Shown: in pieces, positions 5,650-36,842 of the stretch | Position numbering within the stretch: position 1 is the stretch's first letter | How the letters are laid out: each line of letters opens with the position of its first letter | Made by a program: the position numbers and the translations under genes | From: Thoreauomyces humboldtii | Taxonomy: Eukaryota; Chytridiomycota; Chytridiomycetes; Spizellomycetales; Powellomycetaceae | Length of the DNA stretch: 37,942 nucleotides | NCBI GenBank assembly: GCA_027596035.1 | Contig: JADGJA010000135.1 | Coordinates: 1-37,942, forward strand | Reading direction: 5' to 3' | Notes under the pieces: model-generated | What the model was told of the DNA's origin: nothing | Databases searched by the model: none | The model's input: the letters and a program-made list of their open reading frames with translations, nothing else

Positions 5650-7550
5650 TTAACGGACGGTAGCCTCGCTCTGATGCATGTTCGTGTTGTTCTTGTCTGC
5701 GTAGCCCAGGGCGTTTTGTGGGAGTTCGGAGTGCGAGTGTCGGCCCTTGACGATGTATCCCGCGCTGTGCCTTGCTGGGATGCCAGAATCGAACAGCTCG
5801 TCGACATCCTCGAGGGCCAATCCCTTGGTCTCGGGAACGAAGAAGTACACGAAGACGCCGCCGACGAAAACGAAGAACGCCCAGATGAAAGAGATCTTGG
5901 GACCTGAACGGAAAGCGACACAAAACTCGGTTAGTCAGTGATGGGCATGGATGCTGGTGATTTTATAAAAACTCCTTACCAAGATTTCCCTTGTCGTGAT
6001 CCACCACGTAAGGCGTGCAGAAGGCCAAAATAAAGTTCCAAAACCAGTTGGAGGCGGTTGACAACGAAACACCCTTGGATCGGATCCGAATGGGGAAAAC
6101 CTCAGTGGTCACCACCCAAGCCCCGGGTCCCCACGACGAAGCGAACCTGTACGTATACGCGTCAGCTAGGAAAACCACTGTACTTTACATCTGACACCTC
6201 TTACCCGTAAATGAATATGCATGTAAAAACGATGAGGGCAACGCCTGCAGGACCGTTTGCGCTTATGACGGCGCCTGTAGTATTGTCCAATTTGGCTGGA
6301 TAAGCCGTGCCGATGCTTGCCACAACAATCTGCCCGATGAACATGATCGCTGAGCCCATGAGGAGGAGCTGGCGGCGGCCGATGCGTTCGACGAGGTACA
6401 GTGCTGGGAATGTGCTGACAACATTGACGACGCCGGTGATGGTCGATGTGAGGTAGGCCTGCGAGATGCCGGCCTGACGGAAGAAGGTGGGACCGAAGTA
6501 GAAGATAGCGTTCACTGAAAGGAGACAATCACAATTAGCTTCGAGACTGCCCGCTTTAGCGCTGCTGTCAGACATACCTCCTGTAAGCTGCTGGAAACAC
6601 TGGATCCAGATTCCAATCTGAGTGCGGCGGTTGCTGTTTCCACGGAAGCAGTCGGCGTAGGTTGCTTCGTTGACACCCAGGGATGCTTCAAAGGCGAGCG
6701 CCTCCTCGAGCTCGACCATCTCGTCGACGATCACGGTATCCTGCGGAGGCCTGCCTCGCAGCCGGGACAATGCACTGCGGGCTTGCTCCGGGCGACCTTC
6801 CTTCAGGAGATACCGAGGCGATTCGGGCAGAACGATCATGCCAAAGAAGAGCACTAGAGCAGCCAGCGAAAGCGATGCGGTTAGTCTTCTTGAGCTCAAG
6901 ACATGTCGAGTCGACTCGACTTACCAGCAGCGAAAACGAACTGCAGTGCGATGGGCACCCGGTAGGAAGTGCGGCCGGAGATGTTTTGACAGCCTTGGTT
7001 CACACCAAAGGCTGCGAGGATGCCGATGGTGATGGCGAGCTGGTAAGTGGAGACCAGGGTGCCTCTGAGGTGTTTTGGAGCAGCCTCGGCCTGATACAAA
7101 GGAATCAAGTCCGAGAGCAGACCGACTCCGAAACCAGCGACGACACGTCCGGGGAGGAGCAATCCGAGGCTGTGACTAGCTGTCTGCAAGGCGACACCGA
7201 CAGAAAAGACGCAGCAGGAGACCATGATGGCATAACGTCGGCCTACGCGATCGGCGAGGTAGCCGGCGGTGAGGGCGCCGAAGAAGGTGCCGATGCTCAG
7301 GATCGAAACAATGACGGAACGGACACTTGATTTGAGGGGTTGTCCTCCGCCAGGACCAAAGTCGTTGATGAAGGCACTCATCTGCGGTAGGCTATCGGTG
7401 TGAGAGACAGTCACCGACGCTCACGAGCACGGTCGCCCGACGATTCACCTCTTGGATTCCGGAAATAAGTCCCGTATCATATCCGTAGAGAAATCCACCA
7501 AACGACACGAATATGCAGATGAGGATACTGATGGCGTTGACGTTCGCCAT
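5650..7550 (-). CDS. MFS sugar transporter (HXT/sugar porter family)
   Basis: Plasma-membrane sugar/proton symporter or facilitator of the major facilitator superfamily, with 12 expected membrane segments. Model: exons 7550-7449, 7381-6925, 6853-6578, 6514-6205, 6146-5980, 5903-5650 (introns 58-76 nt), 521 aa, the usual family length. Family signatures occur in order: GGFLYGYDTG in TM1, GYLADRVGRR (about residues 74-83), PESPRYLLKEGR (about 195), QQLTGVNAIFYFGPTFF (about 272, completed across an intron), ERIGRR, WGPGAWVVTTEVFPIRIRSKG and PETKGLALEDVDELF near the C-terminus. The start at 7550 gives MANVNAISI directly before TM1, a short cytosolic N-terminus. The exact sugar cannot be assigned; the motifs suit a hexose or related monosaccharide. 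Confidence 0.93.
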
Positions 7551-10863: not shown

Positions 10864-12273
10864 TTACACCACCGTCCTCTTGTCCAAAACGGTCTTGACG
10901 CGACTCCTGTAGTCGTCCCAGTTGTGATACGACCCACAGACACGGCGATGGCCGTCGAAGGGAGCTCGTCCATGGAGCACGCGCCAGTTGTCGACCATCA
11001 CGGCCCGACCTGGCCGTAGCGCGATCCAGAGCTCGTTGGCAGGATCCCGGAGCAGGTCCGTCCAGACCTTGAGGGCTCGGTAGAACTCTGCGACCTGACC
11101 GGGTGCGAGACCGGTGAGGGTGGACCTGTCGTCATTGTTGAACCGGATCTGGTACAGCGATCTCGGCGACCCTTGGTCGTGGTTGAGAATGGAGAAGGGG
11201 TGAGCGGGTTCGACGAGGGTGTTTGCGTCGCCCGCGGAATGGGCCGAGAAGCGCACGGTCGACAGGGTCTCGTAGGCGCGAGGATCCGTCCGCCTCAGCT
11301 GGTCCGCGACGTGGAATCCGTCGACGTAGAGGGACTGCCCGCCGCGTCCATCGTGAGCCAGGAGGTGAAACAGTTGGAGACCGACGGGATCGGTGAAGTA
11401 GGTTCCGTCGGTGTGGGCGGGGAGACCCAGTTGGGTGTAGGCCGTGTCGCCGTGCGCGAGGTCCGACGTGAACTCCCAGAAGCGACCGTAATGGGTCTCG
11501 CGGATGAAGCTGACGCGCTCCCCGAGGGCTTGCGTCGCTTCAGGAGTGGGAGGGACGCCGTCCACAAAGGCGAGACCGTACACGTCCATGTCGTGGAGCC
11601 AGGCCGCGAGTCCGACCTCATCCCGGGCCGGATTCATCACATCAGCGTACTGCACGGTGGGGAGAGAGTCGGCAATGGATGCGTCCCAGAGACGCTTGAC
11701 GCGCTGCGGGGCAGCGTAAGGGGTGGAGGCGGCCACGGGTGGTCCGAGCTTTGGAGCGTAGGAGTTGGTCCTGAGCCAGTCGAGGGACACTAGGCTTCGA
11801 TGGGCGTCCTCGGTCTCCCACAGAATGCTGAGCTGGTCCCCTTCCACGGACATGACGGCGGGCTTGATGGACAGCGGGATGGCGGACGTGTCGACGAGTC
11901 GCTGCTTTGTCACGGGATGGAAGCAGCTCGGACACCGGCAGTGATCCCGCAGCCATATCCCGTGAAACCTCGATACGCTTCCATCCGGGAAGCGGACGGC
12001 GACGGTTCCATCGACCTCGACCCAGGCTGCAGGGGTGATCAAGGCGTCCGTGCCGATGGGTCCGGACGGATTATCATGCAAAGGAGCGACGCGCGCGGCG
12101 GCAGCGGAGCTCTGCGTGGCGAGGGTGCGCGCCTGGTTGAGGGAGAGCTTCCGTGCGCGAGTGACGGAAGCCAAGGTCGGAGAGCACGGACTCAGGCAGC
12201 GTGCATGAGCGAAGACGCGGGCCGAGCCCTGACGGTACACGGCTGTTCCGATGCGCAGCAGGCGAAACGCCAT
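10864..12273 (-). CDS. Trimethyllysine dioxygenase-type Fe(II)/2-oxoglutarate enzyme, mitochondrial
   Basis: Hydroxylates N6-trimethyllysine, the first step of carnitine biosynthesis, using Fe(II) and 2-oxoglutarate; the sister enzyme gamma-butyrobetaine hydroxylase is the main alternative. A single uninterrupted reading frame of 469 aa. The first 60 residues are Arg/Ala/Ser-rich with no acidic residues (MAFRLLRIGTAVYRQG), a good mitochondrial presequence. The N-terminal domain has the WLRDHCRCPSCFHPVTKQR segment (about 107-125; Cys/His zinc-like cluster). The catalytic domain has HTD at 287-289 and His434 (VLHGRAPF) as iron ligands and RRVCGSYHN (443-451) for 2-oxoglutarate. The wording of these segments fits fungal trimethyllysine enzymes better. 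The frame stays open further upstream to 12849, but that part has no homology and is left out. It is the only sizeable confident gene here without introns. Confidence 0.88.
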   Translation of the reverse strand: MAFRLLRIGTAVYRQGSARVFAHARCLSPCSPTLASVTRARKLSLNQARTLATQSSAAAARVAPLHDNPSGPIGTDALITPAAWVEVDGTVAVRFPDGSVSRFHGIWLRDHCRCPSCFHPVTKQRLVDTSAIPLSIKPAVMSVEGDQLSILWETEDAHRSLVSLDWLRTNSYAPKLGPPVAASTPYAAPQRVKRLWDASIADSLPTVQYADVMNPARDEVGLAAWLHDMDVYGLAFVDGVPPTPEATQALGERVSFIRETHYGRFWEFTSDLAHGDTAYTQLGLPAHTDGTYFTDPVGLQLFHLLAHDGRGGQSLYVDGFHVADQLRRTDPRAYETLSTVRFSAHSAGDANTLVEPAHPFSILNHDQGSPRSLYQIRFNNDDRSTLTGLAPGQVAEFYRALKVWTDLLRDPANELWIALRPGRAVMVDNWRVLHGRAPFDGHRRVCGSYHNWDDYRSRVKTVLDKRTVV

Positions 12274-13230
12274 GGACGAGGTGAGGTGGTTGTCTGATGA
12301 AAAGTGGTAAAAAGTTCTGAAAGCGTTTGTTTTTGGTGCGTATTGAGTGGTGAACCAGGGCAAAACGGTATTTGAAGAAACGCGAAGAAGAGATGGGAGA
12401 CGAGACAGAGAGAGACTTGTGAGGATGCGAGATGCCTGAAGAGCTTCGAGACGATCGATATGAAGGGATATTATGGCGAAGAGGACGTGCCAAGTGTCCC
12501 CGGCAGAACAGGAAGCCAAGGCAGCAAACAATTGGAAACGGCGCGCGCCTCCCTTTCTTCCGTTCCCTGGTAACGCCACCACGACTCGATCGGGTAGGCG
12601 GTAAGGCACATATGACTCATGCACGCTTGAGAGTTGAGACGCACACCGGTTAGGGTCAGGGTTGCCTCCCTGCTCGCTCCCCTCTTTTTTGGTTTGGTTT
12701 CGACGCCTCCATTCTTCCCCCTTTTCCCCTTTCCTCCAGCGAGCGGTGACGGCGGTGGGGGTCGTCGTTTCTTTTTCCTCGGGCTCCTCTCCTTTGCCCT
12801 TTCCATGCGTGCGCACTCTCGAGACACCACCATCATCATTCTCTGACATTTGCCACGCACACTCCGTATTCCTTGCCTGCCACGCACACTCCGTATTCCT
12901 TGCCTGCAGTTTGACACAACATAGCCTCCCTCCCCCTCTCTCGTTTCAAGCAAGAAAAAAGGGAACGGTAAGTCACCGTCCTCTCCTCGGCGCAACAAAG
13001 CAGTCCCCGTCTCTCTGGGGGTCTTTTGACTTACCCCTCGACGGGCAGGTCTCACCATCCACTCTTCTCCAGTCTTCTCAACCTTTTCTACTTCTACCTT
13101 TAGTTCCCTAGTCCAGTCTTAAGTTACCTGAAAGATCGATTCTTCGGTCTTGTTGCTAGCTCTCCATCGTCCCGACCAGTTTAGCTCCACAACCCTTCCA
13201 TCTCGCACTCTCCATCTCACACATACCAAC
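12274..13230. promoter_or_regulatory. Shared divergent promoter region (dioxygenase / BAR-like gene)
   Basis: About 960 bp between two divergently oriented genes. It holds a 27-bp tandem duplication (12852-12905), pyrimidine-rich tracts on the right consistent with the BAR-like gene's 5' UTR, and no convincing TATA box. Both genes must take their promoters from here. Confidence 0.55.
12852..12905. repeat. 27-bp perfect tandem duplication
   Basis: The unit begins GCCACGCACACTCCGTATTC and occurs twice without a gap or mismatch (12852-12878 and 12879-12905), inside the divergent promoter. Confidence 0.95.
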
Positions 13231-15326: not shown

Positions 15327-16277
15327 ACCCGACTGCTACCTCAACAACTTCATTCGCTGTGCCTCGCCTCCGCTATTCAAGAACCTTTTAACCGTATCCC
15401 CCTACCCCTTTCTTATGTATAGTTTTCACCCTCGATTATTTTCAGCACCATCTAGGCTTTTCCTTTTTTTATGATTTACATTGATGCTCCCTCGACCCCC
15501 CTCCCTTTTCACCGTTACGTGGACCGTTACGTTCTTTCCTGCGAAGGGTCGCCCGCGGGCTAGAGGCAAAGTGTGCAGTACTGTGTGCGAAGGTGCATAC
15601 GTCGTACACAGCACAAGCGGTTTGTGCCATGTACCACCGTTTACGGCTTGCATTCGTGCTGCACACAAGGTCCGGCGAAGTTCCGGCTTCGCAGAATTGC
15701 GGAAAGATTTCCCAGGCTGAGCGAAGGTTTTGCCTCCTTGTGTGCCCCTTTGCCACCGGAAGATTAAATCCAATTTAGCGTTCCATTTTAGACTTTTTCC
15801 TCGAGGAGACAGCCTCCGCTTTCCGGTCCGTGTACACACAAAGTACACAAACAGGGCCACCGGCACCCCTCCCCCGAAGCTGTCCGACGCAGAGCCTTTG
15901 TCGGTCGTCGTGGGCGACAACGAAAAGAGTCAAGCGGCTCTGTAGGGGTTGTTCCTCACGGCCCGTGGCACGATACCATCCTTCCCTTGCTCCCGGCACT
16001 CGCCGTGGTGTCAGCGATGAAGATGGCCACTGCGGTCGGGATCTCCCGGTGCCTCCCCTTTCCTTCCCCTCGCGCGCGGCAAGGCTGCCCACATGGGCTC
16101 AGATAAGCGCGGATTTGCCTTCGTCCAAAAAGTCACTCTCTTTCGTTCATCCCGTGTAGGAGCGCTGGTGTGATCGAGAGTTCTGGTCTGCATCTCCCGC
16201 CGAAGGAACGCTTATACATCCCGCCTGCTGCAGCTCCTTCCCCCTTCCGCCGCGACGCTCACTCGCTCAGGATACCC
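15327..16277. other. Intergenic, 3' of BAR-like gene and promoter of class C GPCR
   Basis: About 950 bp. The left part is T-rich 3' UTR-like sequence (15377-15475); the remainder is moderately GC-rich. The open frames have no recognisable domains. The GPCR promoter should lie in the right half. Confidence 0.45.
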
Positions 16278-19200
16278 ATGCAGCCGTCCCGTGCACCCTT
16301 GGCGCTATGCTGGCATCATTTCCTTCTGTTGGCTCTTCTCCTCATCCCGCTTGCATCAGCAGTGCCTCAGAATCTCACCTACGGAATTGTCCTCAACTCT
16401 CAAGACCCCGCATCCCCTTCCTTCATTCGGGCCATTTCCCTTGCCAAAGATGCCGTCAATGCCGATCCGACCCTCAATCCATATGTATCCGTCTCCCTGA
16501 AAACTTACGACTCGATGGGAGCGCCCACCCAAGCCTTCATTGCAGGCATGCAAGCGGTTACCGAAGGCGTTTCGGGATTGATAGGCGAAGCGGACAGCGG
16601 GAACACCGAAACGCTTGCTTTGGTGTCCCAGGTCCGAGCCAACATACCGCTTTGTAGCGGAGCATCCACATCTCCAGCCTTGAGCAACAAGACCGAATTC
16701 CCCAACTTCTTCAGAACGATACCGAAGGACGACGCCCAGGCCGCGGGCTTCGTCGCGCTCCTGGCGCAAATGGGCTGGAAGCGTGTGGCGATCCTGTTCG
16801 AGGGAACGGCGTATGGGCAGGGAATCACTCAGGCGCTCGGAACCGCCAATACCGACACCGGAGCGTTCTCCATCGATGCGCAACTGTAAGTCATATTGTT
16901 TCTCTATCGGTTCGATGGGAAGCAAGTGCTGATGCTGTTCCTCGATCCAGATCGTTCAACCCCGAAGACGACGCTCAGATCACCTCACAACTCCGAGCCC
17001 TCCTTGCATCTGGTTCTCGCATCATCCTCGCGATCGGAGCCGATACCGCGAACTTTGCGAAGCTCATCAAAATGGCCGCGACGATGGGACTGGTCGGGGA
17101 CAACTACGTTTGGGTCTTGTCGGACGCCCTATTCCCAGCGCTTCAACAGCTGTCGGATTCTCCGACTACCGCCGACCCTGCCGTTGCTGCCGCCTTGAAA
17201 GGAGCGTTGGCGGTTTATCCGAGGGAGAGTTCAGGTCAGGCTGGAATCAACTTTGCGAGCACCTTCGCGACGGGGAACAGTGCGATCCCTTTGGCGCCAT
17301 ACTCCATGTTTTACTACGATTGCGTGCAAGCACTCGTCCGCGCTCAGCTTCCCCTGCTCCCCGCCTTTCCCGTTTTTAACATCGCACAGATTGCTTCGGT
17401 CACCTACCCCGGCGTGACGGGCACCCTGGCTTTTACGCCTGCGGGTGACCGCGTCGGTGACTTTCTCGTTTACAACTACAACGGTCACAGCGTTTCCGAA
17501 GTTGCCAGCATCAAAGCCCCGACCTACGTGTACAGCCCGTCCACCACCGTCGCGATCACGTTCCACTCCGGTTCATCGAGCCCGCCGCTCGACGCACCCG
17601 TCATGAAGGACAACGTGGTAGACTGGACGTCGCCCCTCGCGATCGTCGTCACGGCTGCGTTCGGGATCATGGTGGTGGTGATCCTCGTGTCGGCTGTTGG
17701 GATCTTCGCCAAGCGACAGGACGCGGGAATGAGGGCTGCGAGTCCGCTGTTCTGCGGACTTTCGCTTCTGGGAATGCTGCTGGTGTTCTTGAGCGAAGGG
17801 GTCGATGTGGGCGCCAAAACTCAGCTACATTGCATCGCGTACCCGGCCCTCTTGAGTACTGGGTTCTTCATCACCTTGGTACGTGCCGGGCTACACTCGT
17901 GTCGAACACTGCATTGAGTTGACAAGATGCCTTCTCTTATTCTCAGTGCGCCGTGTTTGTCAAGCAGTGGCGGATCTACCGAATCTTTGAAAACGTTCAC
18001 CTCATCAACCAGGGCATCAGGGATAAAAAGCTCATCACAATCTTTTCGCTGATGGTCGGAGTTCAGATCGTAAGTTGTCCGCACATAACATTACGCTATT
18101 CTTTCTGTCATTTACCTTTTTGGCGCAATAGATCCTCCTCGTCTGCATGATGATAGTGACCCCGTTGCACCCAGTTGCGACGCTGGACAAAATGACGGGA
18201 CAAACCACGTATTCTTGCGAAGCTACGAACTCATCATTGCAAGGCATCTTTGCGGCTCTCATATTTGCCTACGGTGGTGCGCTGGTCCTCGTCTGTACTT
18301 ATCTCGGTAAGTCACCAAGACCTCGACCAAGGAATAAGAGCTTGCACTCATGCCTCACACTTGACAGCCATCCGGACGCGCAACGTGTATTCCGCTTTCA
18401 ATGAAAGCAAATGGATCGGTTTGAGCGTGTACAACATCATCTTGTGTGGTTCTATCGCCATGTGAGTCCAGCTCGAACTTTCGCCTGGCCCCTTGCTGGA
18501 TCCTGCTTCGTACTTACTCTCGTATTTCTCATCAACTAGCGGCATGACCTACATCGGTGGAATTCCAGAAACTACCCGCTTCGGCGTCCGTTCGGCCGCC
18601 GTCTTCTTCGCGGCGACAGTGGTGTACTACACACTGGTGGGCCGTCTTTTCCAGGTCCTCCTCATCTCTGAGAATTCTCGATCGGAGGACCTCGGATCAG
18701 GAGCCGCGGCGGCGATGGCGGCCCAGGAAGTCAAGGCGGCCGCCTCCTACGTCCAGCTCGGAGTCGTCACACGCTCGGGTCAGGGACTCGTGGCCGTCCA
18801 GATGCGGACGGGAAGATTCCCGATGAGGCAGCAGGGGGTCGTGAACGCGCATTGGAAGACGCACATCTTGAGCGTCGCGTTGGGGGCTGGAGAAAGGACT
18901 TTGGTGTTGTTCGAAGTCAATTCTGTAAGTCCAAGTTCGGGGAACATTCAGAGTTTCGGGACCGTTTCGCTCATCTCTTATCATCAGCACGAGGCAGGCG
19001 TAGCCGTCCCTCTCACATCCGTTCGAGCTCGTGTGGTTTCATCCGACAGCAAGCCCAGCGACGGTCGAGCACGTCAATACCGCTTCGAGATCAGATACCA
19101 CACGACGTGCATGGTGGCGCAGGCGTCCACGCAGACAGAGTGTGATGAGTGGGTGTACCTTCTCAACAGCGCCGCCGGAACGGGTTCTCAGGACGACAAC

Positions 19201-19341
19201 CTCCACGGAGGGGAGTCTCCGCTGCCATACTCGCCGACACGCGCAGCACATGGCGGGTCGAGGAGGGAGAACGACTTCGGGCTGCTGCCCTATGCGGCTA
19301 GTGGAAGAAGAGGGGGATCTCATGCTCAGGGGGGGAGGTAA
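16278..19341 (+). CDS. Class C G-protein-coupled receptor with PBP1 ectodomain and C-terminal PH-like domain
   Basis: Cell-surface receptor of the metabotropic glutamate/GABA-B architecture. Model: exons 16278-16885, 16951-17878, 17947-18069, 18132-18306, 18368-18461, 18540-18924, 18988-19341 (introns 61-78 nt), 888 aa. Signal peptide at residues 1 to about 28 (LLLALLLIPLASA). A periplasmic-binding-protein type 1 (ANF-receptor) domain spans about 30-420: it opens LTYGIVLNSQD and contains GLIGEADSGNT, FFRTIPKDDAQAAGF and GWKRVAILFEGTAYGQG. Seven hydrophobic segments follow (about 430-690), with RAASPLFCGLSLLGML at TM2 and Cys in LHCIAY (TM3) and TYSCEA (loop 2), the expected disulfide pair. 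No Cys-rich linker precedes TM1, as in GABA-B receptors. The tail (about 726-838) looks like a PH domain (GVVNAHWKTHILSVALG, YRFEIRYHTTCMVAQAS, CDEWVYLLNSA). Ligand unknown; amino acids or related small molecules are plausible. Confidence 0.87.
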
Positions 19342-29680: not shown

Positions 29681-32600
29681 ATGAGGCTAAAAGACGTCGT
29701 CGGCGTCTTGGTCGGCGCTCTGGCCGCAGCCCACGGGGTTACAGGGCAGACCGATTCGACTTCAGCTGCTCCCACCACTGCCGATTCTGGACAGTTCAGT
29801 TCCATCGGCACCGTTTCAAGTACGCCTGCAGTTACCAACGAGTTGCAGTCGGAATCGGTGACAATCTCAGCTTCGGTCTTAGCTGTCATCTCGTCTGCGA
29901 CGCCCAGTGGACAGGGGGCATCGACCCCAGCCCCAACTCCCACTTTGTCATCTGCATCCAGCGATGATTTGCAGCCAACCACGTCGATGACGGATTCGGC
30001 CATGAACAGCCTCCAGACGTCGACGACGACCTTCTCGTCATTGGCTTCGGCCGTTCTTTCGGCTGCTTCCGCAAGTGCCTCGGTGTCTAGCAGTGACCTG
30101 CAGTCATCGACGATGACCTTCTCGTCGTTGGCCTCGGCTGTTCTTTCGGCTGCTTCCGCAAGTGCACAGACCAGCTTCACCCAACTCGGCGCTTCGGCAT
30201 CTCCAACAGTGACTTCGACTCCCAGCGCTGTATCCGGCAATGGGTTGCAGTCGACTATGCCGACGACCACCTCGTCCTTCACCTCGGTTTTTACCAATGG
30301 CATGCGGTCGTCGACGTCCATGACATTTTCGTCACTGGCTTCGGCAGTTCTTTCGGCGGCTTCAGCAAGTGCTCAGGCTAGCTTCAGCGGTACAGGTGCT
30401 TCAGCCTCGGGATCAACTTCGATGGCCTACACAATGACCCCGACTCCGACGTTCTCTACTGCCGGATCGCGGACGATCTCGACGACTAATCGACAGAGTA
30501 CGTCCGCTTCGGCTACCAGTCGAACAACCTCGACCGAATCTCGTCCGACCGCCACTACCACGGCCAGCAGCATACAGCCCGGTGCATATTTTCCACGTAA
30601 GTTTGGGTGGCGGGTTATCTTATCTGGGTACCCGAAACTCATATGTTCCGAATACCACCTGCCCTCCTCCAGTGTACCCTTACTACAAAGTAATCTCCAA
30701 TGGTCAGGAATATAACGTCACATGGACCGATGGCTTGACGGCTGTCAGCTCGGCGACCATCAAAAAGGTAACACGCGGTCATTCTCTTGTCGCACCGGAT
30801 ACTCTTAGCTCATGCCTCTGCCATGATAGCCTTATCCGGTTCCAATCCTCACATCCGAAGGCCAAGTCCAGGCGATGCCTTATAATGATGGTAAGAACGC
30901 GGCGACAAGTGTTTGTGATGAGGCTGAGCTAATACTTGCTTTGTTCTTTTAGACAAATACCCATGTACCTATAACGGCTTCTCGGGAACGTGTTCTACTG
31001 GCGGTCGAATGAACGGCGACAGCGGCTCGTCTGCTTGCTATCAGAGAGACGATTTACAAGGCAATAACACTGGTATGCCTGGCGGTAACCAACCTGGCAA
31101 CAATCAGAACGACAATTCAGGCCTTTCCTTGAGCGCAACGCAAAGCGCATGTACACTCGATCTCCCTGGATTTATCAGCGGCACTCTGACCAGGAATGTG
31201 ACGCAAGTGAGAACGAACTGTTCCACCTACAAGACGCTAGGGCTCACCGGTGGTCCCGTCGTCACAACCCATGTTGATGCATACCCCTGCACCAAAAGTA
31301 TTGCGATGTTCAACTCAACCGGAAGCTTCACCAGTATGGTTCTTCAGAACATATCATGTTCCGCTGATTTCTCCACCGAAAGTCCTGGGATCATGAGCAC
31401 GTGGCATTACAAGGTGAGTTTCGGAGCCCGTCGACCATTGTCGAGGACTGCAGCTCTGTCGAAAAGGGGTTGACCTTTGCTGCAGTGCGCCGGAATCGGG
31501 AACAATACTTTGCTGCAAGACTGCTCTTACACCGAACCAGAGGAAACGCTATTTGGGCTGGACGTTTGGAACGTTACGCAGGTCCCATGTCAGAGAAACG
31601 TCACTCTACAGGGTCCCGGAATCTCGTCCATCAACGTGGCTGTCTCTACCTCCTGCGTTACCTATGAGTACACGGGTCCTGGTGATCCGTACAAGGTGCG
31701 TTTATCATCCCAAGCCTCCCTCTACCTATCGCATCGACTGACTTTGCTCTCTTCCTTGTTAGAAAACATACTTCGATGGTCCTTGCTACGGAAATTCTCA
31801 GGGGGTCGTTGTGGGGTCGACTTGTCACTGGGAAACGTGGACAACTGGAGAGGAGAACTTGCCGATCGTTCAGCGGCAAGCTTGCGAGAGACCGCTTCTG
31901 ACTTACATCGATGGAAAGTTTAATGGCACGGTGATCTCAAACACTACCTGTACTACTCAGACCTACCCGGATGCAACCGTTGCAAGGTAAGCTGTCGAGC
32001 CTGTCAAGGTACGAACTCCCCACACTGATGCATGTCGGGCTGCACAGTGAGGACTATGCGTGCCTGCAATGGAGCGATAGCTTCGGATTCTCGCAGTTCC
32101 CATGCAACACATGGACTCGGCTTTATCCTGGGCTAGTGTCTTCGTGGTCAATGCCGTGCGCGGTGAGTCAACGTTATAAGCCTTGTCGGGCAGGACAGCT
32201 ACTGATGCGCAAGTTCGAGCAGGTGCCCAGCAGTGGCTACTACGTAGGTAGCCGATTTGATCCGGGTTCTGGATCTATCAACACCACGTGTTCGGTCTAT
32301 GTTCAAGTGAGTCTCAGATTTTGGCCTACTTTTGTCACCGCCTCCTCACCTCGGGATCGTTCCCTTTAGTCGGCTGGCTCGTATAACGTTACTCGAAGCT
32401 TCTTCACCTACCCATGTCAAAGTCTCATACCATCCTCGAATGGCACTATTTCCAGCTACACAAACTACATGTGCGAGGGCGTTTGGTCTATCGGCCCAGT
32501 GGGATCAGCAACGGGCCCCGGTGGAATCTCTCCTGGGAGCAACATGGGCGGCGATTCCGGCTACAACGGTGTGTCACAGGGCAACAAGGGTACCTACGAC

Positions 32601-35600
32601 ATGAGTTCTTGGACTAGGAACACAACTCTATGTGTCAAGACAGTTCCGAACTATTTCAATGGTACTCAGGTTAGCCGGATGACGTTGAATTCTACGTGTA
32701 CCACGCTATCGAACTCGAACAGTCGCGAGAACGTGACGCTCTGGAGGTACATAGAAGTCCCAATGCCTCTGAACTGCTGCTCTTGCTGAACTCCTCGTCT
32801 CTCTAGCTATCAGTGCATTGGGTCTGATAGCTTCAGTCCCAATGGCACCTTCTCCATGAATTCGACCACCTGCGCCGGCTACTCGTCAAACCTGAACACA
32901 ACAACTATTTACGCTTATGCTTGCAATGGCAACTCGTTTTGCCTTGCTCCGAGCCCGATGGCGGGAATCGTTGCCTGCTCGTCCTCGGATTGCAAGCAGT
33001 TTGCTGGCAGTTCCTTGGTTCCTTCTCTGTGCTCCAACGCATCCGACACGGCGTGCTATGCAAGCACTGGATCTGATCTGTGTGATTACACGCAAGGTTC
33101 AGCACGCTACCAGGGTTTTTCGAATGCATTCGCTGCTTTCAACAAATGGTACTCTCAGTCTCTGATCGAACCTGCTCGGGCGACAACGAACAATTCCTTC
33201 TACTACCCACCTGAGGTCTTTCACCTCGACTCGACTCAGAGCCTCGTTCAACCGAACGTCCCCTTTATGACTGGCTTGTTCGATGAAGACTACTCAAACG
33301 ACACCTGGTCTGGGCCCTTTTGGCCAACTCCGGATCCGTCGGTCCTCGCGATCCCAATTTACAACTTCCCCTGGCACTACCCTTCTGCCAACTCCACGAT
33401 GCCTTGGTCGAACTTTCCTTACGATGAAGACACTGTTGCACCCATAGGAATGCTTGAGGGCTTCACTTTCGGCTTGGGAAACGGTAATGGAAGCACTATG
33501 ACTCATCGTTGGGAATTTTCAACCGCTGATGTGCCGTCGCTTTCTATCGAAAAGGCAATGCTCCCCAAAGCGTTTGGCCCATGATACCTGTTCCTCAGGA
33601 TGGAAAGTTTACGAACAACAGCGACATTCCCTGGATCCTGTTCCCGGCCATTCCAACCCTCACTTCAATTGGACCGACCGCAACTTCAACTTTGTCGCCA
33701 TCGGCCTCGGCCACGGCCACCCCAGTTGTCGTTGTCAACCCCTGTCCCGTGCCGCCTCAGAACGGAGCCGTTCTCTTTTCAGGATCCGCGCTCCAGGGAG
33801 GATCATCGTCGGTCCCGACTTTGAGCATCGGCGGAGGCGCCGTAGCCTCCCTGTCGATTTCCGGCTACACATGCAACTTTGCCAAGGTTTACGTCTTCTG
33901 GTCCCTCGATAGTCTCGTTAGCGCGAGTATCAGCAATGTCTCTGCACAGACGGGCGAGATCAGAACGCAACTCTTTTCCTATCCAATCCAAATTGGAACC
34001 TTGGACCCAAGTGTCAACCACACCATCAGCTCTCGAGCAGTCTATCTTGATGCCAGCGATCGCGTCCTGTCAACCTTGGTAGCCACCGGCTCTTTCGGTG
34101 TTCTTGCCCCAAGCTTTACCGCCGCTCTCACATTACAGCCCGGCATCGTGTCCGGCGCTCTTGACTTTTCTTTGGACGCGACTCCATCCGTCGACGGGTA
34201 AGCCGGAGCCCAGTCCATCAGTAAGCTTATGACATGACTGACTAATATCATTGCGGACAGCATCGATGTATGCTACTTCAAGAAGTTTGTTTCGACGACC
34301 GCGTACAACACGTGTCAGAACTTGAACCCGGGAATTTCGGCATACATAGGAATTGTCCTCGTTCGCTTCAAATGTCAGACAATCAATGGAACGGCTTGTC
34401 CGTTCAACATTCCGACGACAGCCACCCCCGATCAAATGTGGAATCGCAGTCGAAATACCAACACCTCCTTCATTGCGGTCCAAGCGGCCAATGACACCGG
34501 AGGAACTTTTCTGACCATTACCACGGATGTGCCAACGTTCAAGATTCCCAGGTCGGCGCTTGTAGACGGGAGCTATCTATTCAGTGTGGCAATTCAGCAC
34601 CAGGTTCGTTCTCGACTGAGTTCAAGAACGTTTGTTTCTTTACTTACTGACATCTGCTTCTCTAGGGTTATGGCGCTTCAACGGGATCACCCCCAGTCTC
34701 CGTCATCATTAAAACCACTCAGTACTACATCTCGCTTGCTCCATTGACTCTATATGCCCCCGCCACAACCTATATTGTTCCTGCAGTCGTAACGATTGTG
34801 CAAAGTGTCATCGCAACTGATCTACCTGCGAACGTGATTTATTCTTGGGTGGTCACGAACCCTGCCGGAACTACGCTGCGCTCCGCTGCAACAAAGGGGA
34901 ATCTGAAGGTTGACACAACTGGGTTTACCGACGGGTACGAATCGCGAGCAGAAACTTGAGAGCATTCGCCTGCAGTTGGATTGATTAGATTTTCTTCATG
35001 TAGGACCTACACGGTTGCTTTGACGGTTACGGATACTCATGGCAATTTGGCGAAGTCGACGCTCTCGTTCGCAGTCTTGGCTACGATCCCTGCTCCGACG
35101 GCGTGCAGCTTGAGCCCCGCGCAGGGCCAAGAGCTCTCAACCTTTACTGTGACTTGTCCGAGGGCAGATCTGCAACTCGATGGCGCATCGTACTTCTACA
35201 GCTATTTGCTCGGCAGTGTCTATACGACGGTAGCTTACCCTGGTGCGGCTGTTCAGACCATGGTTTTGCCGGCTGGTCTTGTCTCAGTGTATGTAAATCC
35301 CTCGCGGCCCGTCTCTGTGTAGAGGGGAGATGTGATACTCACATACTATTGTTACTTGCCTCTAGCTACGTGCAGCTATATTTGCCGAACAATCTCGTTC
35401 CTGGTTTGCCACAGATCCTGGTGGCTAATGTAACGGTCCTTCCTGCGATCACTAGCAGCACGGAACTGAGCTCAACGTATGCCGGCAAGTTCTCAGCAAC
35501 CGCCGACCCTGCGGCTATTGCCGCTTCAATGGACAGCTTCAAGACCCAACTCGCCAACTTGCCTCCTGGGAGCGCTACCAACCAAGCGGTTGCTGCAGTT

Positions 35601-36842
35601 GCCGATTCGCTTTCGGCAGGGGTCACTGCGAACGAAACTTCATCCTCTGCGATCGCAAAGACGGCTGCAATGGCCAGTCTCCTGACGTCTGGCGCCACTC
35701 TCTCCGACGACAGCAAGAAACAGGCCGGCGTTGCTGTATCCCATCTCTGCGCCTTCCTCGCTCAACCGGGAGCGCAGGTCCCGCTGTCGACCTTGCAAGC
35801 CGCAGGCAACGCCATCATCTCGTCGGCAGTAGCGAACTCGACTTCCTCGGGAGATGCGCAGCTCAACGCTCTTCAGTTTGTGGGACAGGCTTTGGCCAAC
35901 AGTCTGAGCCCTGGGCAGAACACGTCCCTCGCAATCGGTAACGCTTCCCTCCTGGGAGTTTACTCCAACAACCCGGCCGATATGCCCACGAGCCTCGGAA
36001 CCACAGGCAGCGTTTTGCAGCGTAGGTCAGTCAGCACGACCGGCAACTGTGCGGCCAATTTAGGCGCATCCGTTCAGAATACCGTCTTGGCGAGCGGAGC
36101 TAGCTCGGGGTCAGTGGTCAACATTCAGTCAAACTGCATGGCGACCACTCCGTACGCCATTGACCCGTCCCTCCTTACGACTGGGATCTCTACGTAAGTG
36201 TTTGAGCGGGACCCTCTGTATGCTTGCAAGATAGAATGCTCAGCTAGGATTTGCTTCTAGTCTGACTCCTAGCGTTTTGACCCTGTCCGTGATGATCGAC
36301 AACGTGGCCATGACTGGACAGCTGAGTTCCAACATCTCGGTGACCATCCCGACGACATACACAGCTTCGGCTCTTCTGCATCGCCGAACCCTCATCGAGC
36401 GTCGTTCGACTGTGTATTCAACCCAGGTAACGATCGTGGCAGTCTTGGAGCTGTTTTCCTTTCGATCTCCTCGCTGATATGGCTATATCGTTTACTTCAG
36501 TGCATCGTATGGGACTCGACAGCCGGTTCCTGGTCGTCGACAGGCTGCACCGCGACCTCCCCAGCGACGGGCGGATCGTCGACCACATGCTCGTGCAGTG
36601 TCATCGGCACCTACAGCGTCCAGATCCTTTCCCGCGTCGTCGTGCCCAGCAGCACGACCACCACGTCGACTTCGACGGCCACCTCCACTCCCACCGCGAC
36701 CTCGACTCCTACACCCACGCCGGTCGTATCGGGAAACTCGGGTATCTCGAAGGGAGCCATCGCGGGCGCTGTGATCGGGTCGGTGGCCGGTGCGGCCATC
36801 ATCGGCGGTGCGGCGTTCTACCTCATCAAGGTCCGAGCTTGA
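29681..36842 (+). CDS. Large surface protein with REJ/PKD-like modules, GPS-like motif and C-terminal anchor
   Basis: Polycystin-1/sea-urchin REJ-like ectodomain protein, role unknown. Exons: 29681-30596, 30673-30767, 30830-30890, 30953-31413, 31486-31695, 31763-31986, 32048-32162, 32223-32306, 32370-32746, 32807-33530, 33599-34197, 34261-34603, 34666-34934, 35004-35288, 35366-36193, 36261-36426, 36501-36842; 2032 aa. Signal peptide 1 to about 22; Ser/Thr-rich stalk to about 305 with three repeats; Cys-rich region about 340-930 with many N-x-T/S sites; REJ-like region from about 1115 (NPCPVPP) and a PKD-like module (YTVALTVTDTHGN, about 1495). A GAIN-like part leads to a GPS-like motif at 1920-1970 (CIVWDS, GSWSSTGC, TTCSCSVIGTYSV), which keeps the Cys/Trp framework but not the usual HL-S/T cleavage site. 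A hydrophobic segment (about 2003-2027) then ends in KVRA, so it is single-pass or GPI-anchored, not a channel or GPCR. The 33530/33599 junction has the weakest splice donor. Confidence 0.82.
30030..30380 (+). repeat. Three near-identical copies of a Ser/Ala-rich unit (SSLASAVLSAASASA)
   Basis: Copies of about 50 bp start near 30031, 30119 and 30327 and encode FSSLASAVLSAASASA, with mostly synonymous differences between copies (for example TCGTCATTGGCTTCGG against TCGTCGTTGGCCTCGG). They sit in the mucin-like stalk of the REJ/GPS-like protein. Confidence 0.85.

Follow-up and report, generated by a model that had tools for sequence, protein, structure and literature searches.

A predicted single-pass REJ–GPS protein of a chytrid fungus whose GPS motif lacks the self-cleavage residues

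Described REJ and GPS systems and the chytrid gene

SpREJ1, SpREJ8 and SpREJ9 of the sea urchin are single-transmembrane members of the PKD1 family that combine a REJ domain (partial in SpREJ8 and SpREJ9), a GPS and one predicted transmembrane segment, and polycystin-1 carries REJ and a GPS ahead of its first transmembrane segment (PMC1934368). In the same source, a complete REJ domain has six conserved cysteines and GPS cleavage is assumed for the family. During GAIN self-cleavage, a His activates a Ser or Thr nucleophile, and GPS motifs that do not self-cleave occur in ADGRB2 and ADGRB3 (PMC13062082). An adhesion GPCR with a single-pass isoform is Cirl (PMC13197933). Fungal adhesion-type 7TM receptors reportedly lack N-terminal domains (PMC3251606), and a GAIN-bearing ectodomain of the complex kind seen in adhesion GPCRs is described as apparently confined to holozoans, although various non-holozoans are said to carry GAIN in other genes (PMC12716839). 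The REJ–GPS–one-transmembrane architecture is already known from sea urchin, the non-cleaving GAIN domain from animals and the single-pass adhesion-GPCR isoform from Cirl.

We analysed a 37,942-nucleotide stretch of the assembly of Thoreauomyces humboldtii, a chytrid of the Spizellomycetales (contig JADGJA010000135.1), hereafter the window, and compared the protein it encodes with these systems. Likened by description, the window protein shares REJ, a GPS and one transmembrane segment with SpREJ1, SpREJ8 and SpREJ9, but these are animal proteins of a family assumed to be cleaved, whereas it has Gly at the nucleophile position. Polycystin-1 also has REJ and a GPS ahead of the membrane but continues into 11 transmembrane segments and a PLAT domain, whereas the window frame stops four residues past its transmembrane segment. 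ADGRB2 and ADGRB3 resemble it in having a GPS that is not self-cleaving, but ADGRB2 keeps HLS, ADGRB3 has RLS and both have seven transmembrane segments, whereas the window protein lacks the nucleophile itself. Among the literature matches listed (titles and abstract openings, with most subscription journals outside the search) there was no publication on chytrid REJ or GPS proteins, and we have not seen described the fungal combination, with HLT-bearing and HLT-less branches side by side. An account of rumen fungi (PMC6712302) concerns a Gal_Lectin domain allying with polycystin-1, and neither REJ nor GPS.

The coding region occupies 29681..36842 of the window (stop codon 36840-36842), on the forward strand like all features below, and its 17 exons encode 2031 residues. 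The model was rebuilt from the sequence; its 16 introns measure 60-77 nt, all are GT-AG, and the single stop is terminal. A protein search found a predicted orthologue, Geranomyces variabilis HDU88_008308 (1769 residues, 42% identity), which bridged 16 of the 16 junctions in frame, with small alignment gaps near several. A G. michiganensis sequence spans introns 10-14 and ends at the position of intron 15. The 17-exon model that had been proposed in a sequence-only reading thus stayed open throughout and matched the orthologue at its junctions, strongly supporting one gene, at the level of a database-predicted protein rather than of transcripts. Two NCBI protein searches, which scored the 7,995 and 7,988 candidates with the most words in common in size ranges of 493-1570 and 1117-3554 residues, returned no 100% match, so the deposited annotation may have this gene split or may lack it.

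Ectodomain and membrane anchor

The N-terminus begins with a probable signal peptide (29681..29746), called by hydropathy alone from hydrophobic residues 3-21, followed by a Ser/Thr-rich stalk (29747..30580) recognized by composition, with three copies of FSSLASAVLSAASASA; Ser and Thr make up 47% of residues 23-300, and the whole protein contains 38 N-glycosylation sequons. Exons 4-10 of the model encode a Cys-rich region (30953..33483). When the whole protein was aligned, 41 of its 47 Cys fell on Cys in the G. variabilis orthologue, and the same number (41/47) did so in a paralogue on contig C692 of the assembly. Signal peptide, stalk and Cys-rich region had all been read from the sequence before and were found again here.

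A REJ match covers residues 1352-1542 (34451..35154, across introns 12 and 13). When residues 1134-1612 were scanned alone, PF02010 scored 30.2 bits against a cut-off of 25 (E 2.3e-7), with positions 136-337 of the 452-position profile matched. Full-length Pfam scans left REJ unreported in the window protein and likewise in the C692 paralogue, the two Geranomyces sequences and a Phlyctochytrium relative; the C692 REJ was visible in a six-frame search (46.5 bits), and that of G. michiganensis is present among the database's precomputed domains. The PKD-type Pfam models stayed under their cut-offs in residues 1134-1612. Of the REJ/PKD-like segments suggested earlier, the REJ part held in the regional scan.

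The strongest hydrophobic segment of the protein is at its C-terminus (residues 2009-2027, mean hydropathy 2.02), where a predicted transmembrane segment, AIAGAVIGSVAGAAIIGGAAFYLI, at 36756..36827 is followed by the four residues KVRA. Weaker segments (1.40-1.67) occur at 1429, 1573, 1597 and 1857; none of the four has an above-threshold counterpart in the G. variabilis orthologue, whose sole such segment is C-terminal. Between the GPS and the stop there is one hydrophobic segment, not the seven of an adhesion GPCR, nor is there the PLAT domain with up to 11 transmembrane segments of the PKD1 family. Since the frame stops after this segment, no PLAT, channel or 7TM domain can follow, and the earlier description of a single hydrophobic segment with a four-residue end and no multi-pass domain behind it was borne out. 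GPI-anchored proteins have a C-terminal tail that is wholly hydrophobic after the omega site, so KVRA speaks against a GPI anchor. The C-terminal stalk and transmembrane part showed 67% identity to the orthologue (43/64 aligned residues), versus 40-51% in the three other parts measured; against the C692 paralogue it showed 8/44 aligned residues (18%), that is, the similarity is absent there. The transmembrane helix is rich in Gly and Ala.

The GPS, the region before it and the chytrid relatives

A GPS motif was found at residues 1918-1958 (36424..36620, across intron 16), with PF01825 scoring 24.0 bits against a cut-off of 22.5 on the whole window protein. Its Cys/Trp frame is complete (C1919, W1922, W1929, G1933-C1934 and C1948-x-C1950), in line with the GPS assignment of the sequence-only reading; the Trp that is invariant two residues past the first Cys in a sister family is V1921 here. 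The cleavage tripeptide H-L-S/T is replaced by V1952-I1953-G1954 (36600..36608). The alignment to the canonical paralogue is gap-free through the C-x-C-x-H-L-T of the sister family, where the window protein has C-S-C-S-V-I-G. That reading had placed the missing residues at VIG-T; their absence was confirmed, and the register was shifted, with HL/S-T aligning to VI/G and the named Thr falling one residue later. The nucleophile position is Gly in 3/3 family sequences that reach the GPS (VIG in the window protein, TLG in G. variabilis and YLG in C692), a count that leaves aside G. michiganensis, which ends at the intron-15 position, and Phlyctochytrium, which ends before the GAIN region. In the alignment used (A5), both GPS exon rows have their first two residues out of place, and the L009 exon-3 row has its N-terminal half misplaced. 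Because the published route needs a His-activated Ser or Thr, this GPS would not be expected to cut itself in that way.

A GAIN-type module ahead of the GPS is a tentative assignment. Alignment to a structure model of the G. variabilis orthologue placed a fibronectin-III-like domain at 35083..35450 (across intron 14), and its helices placed a stretch corresponding to GAIN subdomain A, with approximate limits, at 35451..35960. The element order in this model is the same as in a GAIN model of the sister family; the GAIN-B part of the G. variabilis model has pLDDT <50. A structure search with the model gave zero PDB matches reaching E 0.001, and there was no GAIN chain among the best 50 Foldseek rows or the best 50 VIA rows listed. 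In the latter, 49 rows aligned chains, mostly of FnIII/Ig type, to about residues 1-100, and one aligned a helical filament to residues 103-273. A profile of the window family searched against the PDB yielded two matches, neither relevant and neither an adhesion-GPCR chain. Profile–profile comparison of the window and sister families aligned 40 GPS columns and nothing more (probability 60.8); beyond the GPS, no alignment between them was obtained. We use the GAIN label on the basis of the GPS match, the element order and the sister family, for what is a candidate module of this kind.

The sister family consists of chytrid REJ–GPS proteins in which HLT is invariant (8/8 proteins, 7 named taxa). 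REJ and GPS are precomputed in all eight and were scanned here in two, and three relatives are labelled 'GAIN-B domain-containing' by UniRef. Its member in this genome lies on contig C180, matches T. humboldtii HKX48_003988 at 100% identity and is a single open frame. Like the window protein it has REJ, a GPS, a large ectodomain and one strong C-terminal transmembrane segment, but it differs in its intact HLT, a tail of about 100 residues with a PPxW motif and its single open frame. Given this protein in the same genome and HLT in 8/8, loss of the triad in the branch of the window protein is the simpler reading from this comparison, and the ancestral form proposed earlier is not favoured. The chytrid single-pass REJ–GPS set, with HLT-keeping and HLT-less branches, would offer a genetic system in flagellated fungi in which to ask what function a REJ–GAIN module serves when no 7TM or channel domain is attached, and whether it needs cleavage.

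KR and RR pairs (KK excluded) number three in the 2031 residues, at 1806, 1904 and 1910, and the GAIN/GPS region holds all of them. Site 1 (LQ-RR/S, residues 1806-1807, 36021..36026) shares its alignment column with an RR of both Geranomyces sequences, with that of C692 (LSRR) one column off. Site 2 (LH-RR/T, residues 1904-1905, 36382..36387) and site 3 (IE-RR/S, residues 1910-1911, 36400..36405), with the first GPS Cys, C1919, eight positions on, have counterparts in G. variabilis; C692 has a counterpart of one of the two, and alignments differ as to which. Further pairs are found in C692 at 108 and 130, near the N-terminus, and at 1689 in the GAIN region; in G. variabilis (KR at 1028); and in G. 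michiganensis (KR at 386, RR at 559). These sites beside the GPS had gone unmentioned in the earlier reading. KR/RR motifs are common in secreted fungal proteins, and Kex2 favours an aliphatic P4; P4 is Leu or Ile at each of the three window sites. A P-domain subtilase with frames that appear kexin-like by eye is encoded in the assembly, so that the sequence pattern for Kex2/furin cutting, KR/RR with aliphatic P4, occurs together with a kexin-like enzyme in the genome. Cutting of this type may stand in for self-cleavage in the window protein.

Possible modes of action

REJ and GPS in this order, a C-terminal hydrophobic anchor with four residues behind it, loss of H-x-S/T and KR/RR pairs common to relatives are established. 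Judged by its sequence, the window protein is real and represents a conserved variant, in fungi, of the architecture of polycystin-1 and sea-urchin REJ proteins. We consider it about evenly balanced that this is an elastic surface glycoprotein of type I, crossing the membrane once, whose GPS cannot self-cut, which a Kex2-type enzyme possibly nicks and which acts through a membrane partner. Its predicted layout starts with a Ser/Thr stalk and a head rich in disulphides; fibronectin-III-like domains in a REJ-type stack come next, then a GAIN-type module, one transmembrane segment and a near-zero tail. The head and REJ stack would bind or feel substrate or wall; adhesion or wall sensing is inferred from composition. 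Force would not be released through GPS self-cleavage, and Kex2-type cuts at KR/RR could instead give an ectodomain of two chains that disulphides and the GAIN fold keep together. As just four residues lie on the cytoplasmic side, a partner would be needed for signalling, and the protein might act by pulling on another membrane protein, for example the longer-tailed sister, or by pairing through its Gly/Ala-rich helix, a candidate partner contact that does not extend to the C692 paralogue (18%).

The protein might also simply be an uncleaved adhesin, a long elastic anchor from membrane to wall or substrate in which the GPS is a structural relic and convertase cuts are irrelevant. The missing catalytic residues in every family member that reaches the GPS, the four-residue tail, the 38 sequons and the Ser/Thr stalk are consistent with this tentative alternative, and there is animal precedent in ADGRB3 and ADGRB2, which crystallised uncleaved (PMC13062082); on the other side, both Geranomyces species and one paralogue have KR/RR pairs in this module, too. 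Assembly through the transmembrane helix with the canonical HLT sister or another receptor, so that the window protein serves as a decoy or partner subunit modulating that protein, appears quite unlikely. It draws on the Gly/Ala-rich segment lying in the part most like the orthologue, on the longer tail of the sister and on the 1TM isoform of Drosophila Cirl, which apparently heterodimerises with the 7TM form (PMC13197933), but the same part is unlike in the C692 paralogue.

We regard it as very improbable that the window protein is just an ordinary sensor of mucin-like type, with a GPS-like motif that arose by chance or convergence in a Cys-containing fungal stalk. The score is modest (24.0 vs 22.5), whole-protein scores of G. 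variabilis (19.0) and C692 (20.1) fall below the cut-off of 22.5, and with a custom profile of the sister-family GPS, a weaker control, 1 of 6000 shuffled sequences exceeded the 14.5 bits of the window protein. Against this, a six-frame search of the 20.67-Mb assembly (E<=10) placed GPS matches in at least three places, all over the cut-off (30.8 bits in the window, 27.7 in C692) and all in REJ-type genes, a lower bound since the search worked at exon level and four candidates were scored; the three matched genes all have a C-terminal transmembrane segment, and a canonical paralogue is present in the same genome. REJ exceeded its cut-off in the regional scan as well. Furthermore, when the isolated GPS segment was compared with the PDB, 10/18 matches were adhesion-GPCR chains, albeit at E 0.076-1.2; of the rest, 7/18 were designed or repeat proteins matching by repetition and 1/18 was a lectin.

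Returning to the convertase sites, a further paralogue, on contig C457, has LERR/D twelve residues past C-x-C and nine past the HL/T cut position; its GPS is degenerate, with no Pfam match and -0.5 bits with the sister-family profile. It is conceivable, though on balance doubtful, that chytrid REJ–GPS proteins have swapped GAIN self-cleavage for convertase cleavage, the HLT branch cutting itself and the window branch and C457 being cut at Kex2-type sites. If so, the conserved output would be a two-chain, force-releasable ectodomain reached by two proteolytic routes within one fungal family.

The genome was also searched for candidate partners. Searches with PLAT, 7tm_2 and Polycystin_dom came back empty; the controls were also silent and introns break the genes, so absence is not implied. 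A PKD_channel match on contig C61 was considered as a polycystin-2; its best match was YVC1, a TRP channel of yeast, polycystin-2 trailing by a wide margin, and it was therefore not counted as one. A second, weaker PKD_channel match lies on contig C256.

The head of the surface protein

The head domain of the window protein starts at residues 300-357 (window 30580-30890) with a motif, (F/Y)-P-x-YPYY ... YNVTW ... PY, that is common to this protein, its predicted Geranomyces variabilis orthologue (P0002) and the REJ-GPS paralogue on contig C692 of the same assembly. The pattern is suggestive of the Kre9/KNH-type domains of fungi, but a Pfam scan of the window protein returned no match over these residues. 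On visual inspection, the Cys-rich head (residues 420-770) appeared to be a series of units of about 50 residues carrying N-x-T-C-x-x-Y ... PC.

Sister and paralogous proteins

The sister REJ-GPS protein on contig C180 (L007, 2652-7352, minus strand) has a cytoplasmic tail with PPxW. This motif was found close to the C-terminus, in the predicted cytoplasmic tail, in all eight relatives, and took the form PPRW-x-x-HL in five of them. A third paralogue of REJ type was observed on contig C457 (L001, L011), with a REJ score of 88.5 bits, a Ser-rich stalk and a degenerate GPS in which LERRD lies C-terminal to C-x-C; it also has a hydrophobic segment rich in Gly and Ala, and its tail is short and basic.

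Other genes in the window

Exons of a class-C GPCR-like gene (16107-19341, plus strand) matched ANF_receptor (87.2 and 42.7 bits, both above cut-off) and 7tm_3 (33.3 bits, slightly below the cut-off of 33.5) in Pfam. The frame at 18466-19341 (plus strand), without a match in the Pfam scan, was placed with this gene by position alone. On the minus strand, Pfam identified a gamma-butyrobetaine-hydroxylase-like dioxygenase (10864-12945; TauD, 137.4 bits; GBBH-like_N, 46.9 bits) and an exon of a sugar transporter (6201-6920; Sugar_tr, 141.6 bits).
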